From assembly GCF_947493565.1 (NCBI RefSeq), contig NZ_CANLRG010000002.1, forward strand, positions 62,001-126,000: 64,000 nt of DNA, read 5' to 3'. Shown here one piece after another: positions 2,444 to 4,584 of this stretch (position 1 is the stretch's first letter; each line of letters begins with the position of its first letter). The notes beneath the pieces were generated by a model. The model was not told the DNA's origin and did no database searches. It was given only the letters and a program-made list of their open reading frames with translations. Both the position numbers and the translations under genes were made by a program. This stretch comes from an uncultured Lutibacter sp. Lineage in GTDB: Bacteria > Bacteroidota > Bacteroidia > Flavobacteriales > Flavobacteriaceae.

Positions 2444-4555
2444 TTAGCTAATCTGTTCTCCATTTTTTACCGCATCATTTTCTGGTTCAATAAAAGCCAA
2501 TGTACCATCTTTCGTATCGGTCATTAAAATCATTCCCTGACTTTCAACTCCACGTAATTTTCTTGGAGCTAAATTCACTAAAACCGTTACTTTTTGTCCA
2601 ATAATTTCTTCAGGTTTAAAACTTTCTGCAATACCAGAAACAATAGTTCTAATATCAATACCTACATCAACTTTTAATTGAAGTAGTTTTTTTGTTTTAG
2701 GTACTTTTACAGCATCAATAATAGTTCCAACTCTAATATCAAGCTTTGTGAAGTCGTCAAATTCTATCGTTGGTTTTTGAGGTTCTACTTTTTTAGTATC
2801 GGCATCATTTACCAATTTGGTTGCCTCTAATTTATCTAATTGAATTTGAATGTCTGTATCTTCAATTTTAGCGAATAACAATTCAGCCTTTCCAATTTGA
2901 TGATTTGCAGCAATTAATTCGTCTTTCTCTTCAACATCATTCCATTTTAAAAAGTCATTGCGAAACTCATTCTTAGAGGAGATTACTTCGTCGCTTTGCT
3001 CCTTGTAATGACGTAAGTTCAAAATCCCTTTTAATTTTGCAGAAGTAAAAGGTAAAAAAGGTTCACAAACAACCGCTAATCCAGCAGCAATTTGTAAAGC
3101 CACATACATAATAGTTTTTACTCTTTCAGGATTTTCCTTTAGTTGCTTCCAAGGTTCTTCATCGGCTAAATATTTATTCCCTAAACGTGCCAAATTCATC
3201 AATTCTTGCGAAGCCTCTCTAAAACGGTAACGTTCTATAGAACTACCTATAATTGAAGGGAATTTTTGCAATTGTTCCAACGTTTCATTATCTATATCGC
3301 TAAATTCATTTGGTTCAGGAACAACCCCTTGATAATACTTATTAGTTAAAACTACCACTCTATTGATAAAATTACCTAAAATAGCTACCAATTCGTTATT
3401 GTTTCTTGCCTGAAAATCTTTCCAAGTAAAATCGTTGTCTTTAGTTTCAGGAGCATTTGCAGTAAGTGCGTATCTTAAAACATCTTGTTTATCAGGGAAC
3501 TCTTCTAAATATTCATGCAACCAAACCGCCCAATTTTTTGAAGTTGAAATTTTATTGCCTTCTAGGTTTAAAAATTCATTGGCAGGTACGTTTTCAGGTA
3601 AAATATAACTTCCTTCTGCTTTTAACATTGCTGGAAAAATAATGCAGTGAAATACTATATTATCTTTTCCAATAAAATGAATTAATTTAGTGTCTTTATC
3701 TTTCCAATAAGGTTCCCAATCTTTACCTTCTCTTTGTGCCCATTCTTTGGTAGATGATATATAACCAATAGGAGCATCAAACCAAACATATAATACTTTG
3801 CCTTCTGCACCTTCCACAGGTACTGGAATTCCCCAATCCAAATCTCGAGTTACGGCTCTTGGTTTTAAACCATCGTCTAACCAAGATTTTACTTGTCCTA
3901 ACACGTTCGTTTTCCAATCATTTTTATGGCCTTCAACAATCCATTCTCTTAACCACTGCTCGTACTTATCTAAAGGTAAATACCAGTGTTTTGTTACTTT
4001 GGTTGTTGGTACATTTCCTGTAATTGTCGATTTTGGATTGATTAAATCTGTTGCATTATGACTTGTTCCACATTTTTCACATTGATCGCCATAACTTTCA
4101 TCATTTCCACATTTTGGACAGGTTCCAATTACAAATCTATCTGCTAAAAACTGTTTGGCTTCTTCATCGTATAATTGTTCTGTAGCTTCTTCAATAAACT
4201 TACCTTCATCATATAACTTTTTAAAAAATTCTGAAGCTGTTTGATGATGAATTTCAGCAGAAGTACGGGAGTAATTGTCAAAAGAAATTCCAAAATCACT
4301 AAAAGATTTTTTAATAATTGCATGATATTTATCCACAATATCTTGTGGAGAAACTCCTTCTTTTTTAGCTTTTATTGTAATTGGAACTCCATGTTCATCA
4401 GATCCACAAATATATAATACATCGTTTCCAGTACTACGTAAATATCGCGCATAAATATCAGCTGGTACATAAACACCTGCTAAATGCCCAATATGTACTG
4501 GACCATTGGTGTATGGTAATGCTGCTGTAATGGTATATCTTTTTGAATTGCTCAT
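2444..4555 (-). CDS. metG: methionine--tRNA ligase (with in-frame repeat insertion)
   Basis: Cytoplasmic methionyl-tRNA synthetase charging tRNA-Met. It shows the HIGH motif (PVHIGHLAG, about residue 18), a four-cysteine zinc knuckle around 145-163 (CPKCG...CEKCG), a KMSKS-type loop as KISTS near 337, and a C-terminal tRNA-binding OB domain from about 590 ([11 protein letters not shown]). I chose the ATG at 4553-4555 (MSNSKRYT). An upstream ATG at 4577-4579 would add eight residues but overlaps the promoter box at 4577-4584, so it cannot lie inside the transcript. At about residues 515-534 the protein carries a 20-codon segment encoded by a dispersed palindromic repeat (2954-3013), placed in the linker between the anticodon-binding and C-terminal domains. 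The gene is otherwise intact. Confidence 0.96.
2954..3013 (-). repeat. dispersed palindromic repeat element inserted inside metG
   Basis: The ends are complementary (gtcatt at 2954-2959, aatgac at 3007-3012; the stem extends with G-C, A-T and G-T pairs to about 10 bp), and the interior contains acttcgtcgctttgctcc. From memory this closely matches a dispersed repeat found in many Bacteroidota and other bacterial genomes, with outer CGTCATTGCGA and core CTTCGTCGCTTCGCTCC. The copy is 60 bases, a multiple of three, and reads through metG without a stop. I found no second copy in this window. Confidence 0.75.
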
Positions 4556-4576
4556 CAAAATTTGTTTAAGAAAGCA

Positions 4577-4584
4577 CAAAAATA
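4577..4584 (-). promoter_or_regulatory. metG -7 promoter box (TATTTTTG)
   Basis: It matches the Bacteroidetes -7 consensus TAnnTTTG on the minus strand, 22 bases upstream of the chosen metG ATG. No convincing -33 TTG was seen. It decides against the upstream metG start. Confidence 0.6.

Follow-up and report, generated by a model that had tools for sequence, protein, structure and literature searches.

CGTC REPs were defined by Di Nocera et al. (2013; PMC3733652), with the Bacteroidetes among the listed hosts. According to the part of that paper drawn on here, REPs lie inside the tRNA synthetase genes of X. oryzae, E. lithoralis and S. alaskensis, insertions in flexible linkers or loops were suggested to be possibly neutral, and the recB genes of two Xanthomonas species carry different REPs at about the same site. 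The same part equated CGTC-1 of R. conorii with RPE-6 and CGTC-4 with RPE-4, and left open the means by which CGTC REPs are mobilised, no transposase being known for them. On this source, REPs in genes are a known event type, and recurrence at the same site has a small precedent in two species. The literature search turned up neither a paper describing REPs in metG or leuS of flavobacteria nor a report of many unrelated REP families in one essential-gene loop across a bacterial family.

The element studied here lies in metG of an uncultured Lutibacter sp. (genome G000; 3.10 Mb, 37 contigs), in a 64,000-nucleotide stretch referred to as the window. CGTC REPs bear a CGTC, TGTC or CCTC tag at one end, and the element begins with CGTC. 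The outer stem of its 5' unit was 5 bp, against 8-9 bp in CGTC REPs, its loop was large and interrupted, against 4-5 bases, and one copy of its subtype was present in G000, against many copies per host. Because the element departs from CGTC REPs in these strict features of stem, loop and copy number, it was called REP-type and was not assigned to CGTC-1 to -4, relative to which its family (A) has a shorter stem and a larger loop (PMC3733652, as drawn on here). Family D, found in other metG genes, had a stem of 8 bp and a loop of 5 bases, and families C and D were multi-copy in many relatives. Among 40 metG copies of C and D, the tag was TGTC in 32, CGTC in 3 and degenerate in 5.

The element and its host gene

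The coordinates of the gene and of the parts of the element are listed in Table 1. On the metG strand, the element read CGTCATTACAAGGAGCAAAGCGACGAAGTAATCTCCTCTAAGAATGAGTTTCGCAATGAC, a CGTC-tagged palindrome with complementary ends that was translated in frame within metG; the preliminary description of a 60-base palindrome adding 20 codons was thereby confirmed. Its 18-base core occurred once in the window (up to 3 mismatches), with 0 occurrences expected from 100 shuffles. The GC content was 43% in the element and 33% in metG.

Table 1. Coordinates of metG and of the palindromic element in the window
Feature	Position	Strand	Basis and remarks
metG, methionyl-tRNA synthetase	2444..4555	(-)	ORF 2444-4579; 703 aa from ATG at 4555; alternative TTG start at 4579
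Family-A REP-type palindromic element, in frame, 20 codons	2954..3013	(-)	Sequence; aligned homologues and bare congeners
5' unit of the element, GTCATTACAAGGAGCAAAGCGACGAAGTAATCTC	2979..3012	(-)	CGTC tag when base 3013 is added; matches to the family-A pattern
Inverted 3' unit, remnant, TTTCGCAATGAC	2954..2965	(-)	Linker of 25 residues against 33 in G012 and G020

Pfam matches of the gene were tRNA-synt_1g, Anticodon_3 and tRNA_bind, and PDB matches were 1rqg and other MetRS chains. It was the sole full-length metG match in G000; the two other matches to the metG query were a 126-aa ORF resembling the tRNA-binding domain and a 942-aa ORF at the place matched by LeuRS. In the PDB matches, the catalytic and anticodon-binding part ended at about residue 514-530 and the tRNA-binding domain began after about residue 593. 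The insert (residues 515-534) is bracketed by these matches and therefore belongs to the inter-domain linker, in agreement with its earlier placement between the anticodon-binding and C-terminal domains. AlphaFold prediction (29 rows, mean pLDDT 75) gave a pLDDT below 50 for residues 517-534 of the insert, which is of low confidence in the predicted structure and probably disordered.

Although the element comprises 20 codons, the net gain was 17-18 residues, the linker being of 25 residues in the window and of 7-8 in bare congeners. It was also 8 codons shorter than the linkers of G012 and G020, and is therefore best read as a shortened two-unit palindrome. Rfam searches of the window and two loci at gathering thresholds returned a single tRNA and nothing else.

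In G000, the family-A pattern (up to 2 mismatches, genome-wide) and a REP consensus both matched metG alone, and no second copy of the subtype was found. A blastn search with the element gave weak matches on contig C1, the best of them at 81% over 35 query bases with an E value of 0.02, and one family-D copy lay between ORFs on contig C2. The view that the element is a dispersed palindrome thus held for its relatives in other flavobacteria, described below, and failed for the host genome, in which the subtype had no further copy at up to 2 mismatches. Contig C1 also carried 19 palindromes of a shorter type, TTGCTTCGCTNCGCTCGCAATGAC (up to 3 mismatches), with tandem units of 20 bp inside them. 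They shared one strand; one was located at 181 kb and the other 18 fell within 236-274 kb (L002, L003). This stretch sits among genes resembling sulfate-activation and ABC-exporter genes, and the palindromes may mark an imported cluster.

Repeat families in metG linkers

A search of 38 Lutibacter genomes gave 36 readable metG linkers, with G024 and G027 giving paralogue matches alone. A recognised repeat was present in 14 linkers, 18 were bare (7-8 residues), and 4 were unassigned (G006, G028, G035, G037). The repeats belonged to family A (G000, G012, G020, G033), to an A-half plus C (G031, G013), to family B (G003, G008, G021, G023, G032, G034) and to family C (G009, G011). The linker of G034 (locus L043) contained a 33-nt unit in two tandem copies (DQSDSQMSTAN), and linker repeats may therefore grow through duplication too. 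Arrays were also seen elsewhere in the genus. Ten family-A units with a period of about 65 bp, on one strand, were located at G002:C35:87589-88204 (L342, L360), the metG linker of the same Lutibacter genome being bare, and three D-like CGTC repeats at 143-bp spacing occurred twice in G012 (C16:4539-4850 and C24:100425-100736).

Across the Flavobacteriaceae, 210 metG loci were read. The genus search supplied 30 and the named loci 80 (the best 80 of at least 591 confirmed); the other 100 were fetched stretches (6 from the genus and 94 from the family) taken from the top of a list ranked by similarity to the window gene. Linkers were parsed in 207 loci (L167, L192 and L228 were missed), and 200 were distinct after removal of duplicates. 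In this non-random sample, at least one of seven repeat families, labelled A to G in this analysis, was recognised in 72 of the 200 linkers, while 128 had none; the finding is thus wider than the single insertion described before. The 72 linkers comprised 18 with C, 18 with D, 13 with F, 8 with A, 8 with B, 3 with E, 2 with an A-half plus C, 1 with G and 1 with three families (L193). Two or three families stood in tandem in the composite linkers L032, L147 and L193, whose A-halves were called from the peptide. The 20 residues of the window insert were absent from most MetGs read, class A being found in 8 of 200 linkers by pattern and in the 3 composites (as its 3' half, from the peptide), so that the segment is not one carried by most flavobacterial MetG.

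Six long patterns (A5, C, D, E, F, G; coding strand) matched 63 of the 200 linkers (10.7 kb) versus 0 matches in the 404 kb of gene remainder, and reversed linkers, used as a control, gave 0 pattern matches. Family B was represented by short patterns only, which also matched the gene remainder 4 times in 408 kb; copies of its 15-base unit were also seen away from metG, at loci L345 (from G008) and L271 (from G036). In 39 MetG loci from other Bacteroidota families, the six Flavobacteriaceae-derived patterns, which would miss other repeat types, matched nowhere inside metG and three times in the flanks.

Close relatives differed in linker content. The MetG proteins of L032 (G031) and L034 (G032) were 99.4% identical outside the linker, with 97.6% and 98.2% identity in the flanking DNA, and their linkers were unrelated (a 93-nt A/C composite versus a 126-nt B array); several genomes, including those of this pair, are fragmented assemblies. 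Among 14 repeat-bearing pairs with at least 95% protein identity, the family was the same in 8 and different in 6, L032 taking part in three of the six. On the FastTree tree, 60 changes of linker state were counted, versus a mean of 69.4 (range 66-72) with shuffled labels. The states therefore track the tree slightly, and this count treats gain and loss alike.

Signs of repeat origin and copies outside metG

Stem covariation among metG copies was strong for family C (19 distinct copies; 0.368 versus 0.137 when shuffled, 0 of 500 shuffles as high, and at most 0.114 when slid) and modest for family D (14 distinct copies; 0.173 versus 0.095, 3 of 500 as high, at most 0.102 when slid). In distant pairs of peptide-defined linkers, codons for the same residue agreed in 83% of cases for D, 79% for C and 87% for F, compared with 53-57% in the flanks; this version is less circular than the comparison on pattern-defined groups, which is partly so. 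In 10-residue linkers without REPs, the value was 48% versus 51% in the flanks.

Of the three stop-free frames of family D (CHSELDSES, VILNLIQNL, EILNQVQND), only CHSELDSES was used by the 18 metG copies. The C peptide was VxSSAVE in the metG, E2, MenE-like, PrmC-like and LeuRS genes, the exceptions being the type I subunit and two ORFs. Family A has one sense-direction frame open over its full length, and in leuS some repeats stood in other frames or reversed (VIASEAKQS, EMLKQVQHDK). A frame filter against stops and hydrophobic peptides is suggested by this usage.

Families A, C and D were searched genome-wide in genomes picked for their metG linkers, both repeat-bearing and bare. Family D was matched in 40 of 72 genomes, C in 55 of 72 and A in 21 of 55; discounting genomes in which metG was the sole match (G316 for D; G000, G020 and G072 for A), the numbers were 39, 55 and 18. 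Reversed-pattern controls for the three families gave zero matches in every genome. The highest copy number of C was 113, in G151. D matches were present in 12 of the 13 genomes whose linker is of type D or D-like, and in 11 of the 12 they lay outside metG; the exception was G160, with a D-like linker and no D match in the genome. In G241, an intergenic two-unit A element shared its first 34 bp, without a difference, with the metG copy of the same genome. An inner segment was common to the family-A metG linkers of several genera and absent from the three dispersed A copies that were read; family A may therefore go back to a single entry into metG, followed by spread through descent or interspecies exchange.

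Other genes carried the same repeats. For LeuRS, 50 genomes were chosen and 49 of them gave one gene each; 13 of these 49 genes were matched (up to 4 mismatches), at two loops only within the part covered by the 907-residue query. The editing-domain loop that follows SVGASVxFN was occupied in 10 genes and the loop before the ELNTMP motif in 5, both being occupied in 2 genes. One of the 13, L507, counted through a single 4-mismatch match alone. Examples with the repeat families of metG were L476, L478, L491, L508 and L522, among others.

Contexts of D and C were read at 30 loci each, one per genome as returned. Two D copies lay in ORFs of more than 600 aa, both metG, and two in 94-aa ORFs; nine C copies lay in ORFs of more than 300 aa and one in a 127-aa ORF on the other strand. 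The nine ORFs were metG, E2 acyltransferase (two), MenE-like (two), 2-hydroxyacid dehydrogenase, methylase-like, a type I specificity subunit and one without a Pfam match, the names of the methylase, the second E2 and the MenE being tentative (L279, L299, L305). In L302 and L305, an SSAV-type repeat occupied the same site of the MenE-like enzyme. For G158, G063, G062 and G095, 49 of 51 D copies were fetched, the other two being the metG copies of G062 and G063. Four of the 49 lay in sense direction in long ORFs (three leuS and one 3-hydroxyacyl-CoA dehydrogenase), and two lay antisense in ORFs of 114 and 240 aa. G209 has 19 C copies outside metG; a PrmC-like gene contained one of these, and a second stood where a further ORF begins.

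Origin of the linker repeats and comparison with described systems

In the explanation that we consider probable, the insert is a decayed palindrome in a tolerant MetG linker, and several repeat families repeatedly arrive or are exchanged there and in two LeuRS loops. The insert would be a decayed copy of a two-unit CGTC-tagged REP-type palindrome of family A. The MetG linker and the two LeuRS loops would be tolerant sites into which mobile palindromes of several families are repeatedly brought, by arrival or by exchange, before giving way to others, and survival would occur mainly where orientation and frame yield a stop-free polar peptide (CHSELDSES, VxSSAVExS, RHxEExSDxVISS). One spot in an essential enzyme thus seems to keep collecting stray repeats. 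The low pLDDT of the insert, the bare linkers of half of the Lutibacter genes and the differing linkers of near-identical genes look like tolerance, and on the same grounds the earlier suggestion that the element had been domesticated as protein is not supported; we infer that the repeats persist through tolerance and not through a selected function. Such a function, either an mRNA hairpin (stabilising the mRNA, or making translation pause ahead of the C-terminal domain) or a useful linker peptide, appears improbable. The conserved stems and silent sites of the metG copies, the position of the insert before a separate tRNA-binding domain and the use by all metG D copies of one polar frame out of three stop-free ones would be consistent with it; however, 128 of 200 linkers have no recognised repeat and 18 of 36 in Lutibacter are bare, families without common sequence replace one another, and 10-residue linkers without REPs lack silent-site conservation.

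A patchwork that goes back to a small number of old insertions, passed among flavobacteria through homologous recombination at metG while new transposition played hardly any part or none, is less likely than repeated arrival but deserves more weight than a selected function. It would account for the inner segment common to family-A linkers of different genera, and for the comparison of L034 with L043, where differences rise to 16 in the 150 nt adjoining the linker versus 1-7 per 150 nt further up. Against it, L032 and L034 differ at 4 of 150 positions upstream and 3 of 100 downstream, with no local excess beside the linker, and the same families occur in leuS, E2 acyltransferase, MenE-like and PrmC-like genes. 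Targeted insertion, in which the machinery would be drawn, beyond mere tolerance, to some feature of the DNA or RNA in these loops, such as an existing palindrome, also has a low probability: the composite linkers and the restriction of leuS matches to two spots agree with it, but the families enter metG at different phases and offsets, and unrelated genes also carry repeats. That an ordinary linker resembles a repeat by chance would fit the lack of a second subtype copy in G000 (up to 2 mismatches), but is hardly credible in view of the 63 matched linkers versus none in 404 kb of the same genes and of the identical 34-bp unit in the intergenic element of G241.

More broadly, we tentatively propose that mobile REPs of the Flavobacteriaceae could be a standing source of new linker peptides. 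The MetRS linker and the two LeuRS loops would be active landing sites, reloaded on the species time scale with the family then on the move, by a mobiliser that needs no RAYT in the same genome, and a filter on the reading frame would let the repeats serve as polar spacers as well. A conserved gene whose flanks are well conserved, and whose succession of repeats can be followed through hundreds of species, would make insertion, exchange, frame filtering and loss measurable. The case also shows, in concrete terms, how essential enzymes can be supplied with protein segments by selfish DNA.

The RAYT-type transposase PF01797, the only transposase family searched, was present in 15 of 30 genomes and was not found in G000 or in the repeat-rich G151, G062, G063, G095 and G158. 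RAYTs are thus a poor fit as mobilisers of the linker repeats, and the 113 C copies of G151 indicate that a RAYT is not needed in the same genome today. The GTAG REPs mobilised by RAYTs are likewise small palindromes with dimers and many copies, and differ in the tag.

The Rickettsia palindromic elements (RPE-1, -4 and -6) are, like the window element, palindromes inserted in frame in coding genes, and entry into metG by the route known for them and for other REPs is supported; they belong to a different phylum, and the likeness drawn here is one of description. The CGTC REPs, as far as the cited part of their description extends (PMC3733652), share with the repeats reported here the CGTC/TGTC tag, short palindromes, a mostly intergenic location and some intragenic copies; they are described as having no associated transposase. 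Compared with them, the present case is distinguished by several unrelated families in one essential-gene linker across a bacterial family, and by different families in near-identical genes.
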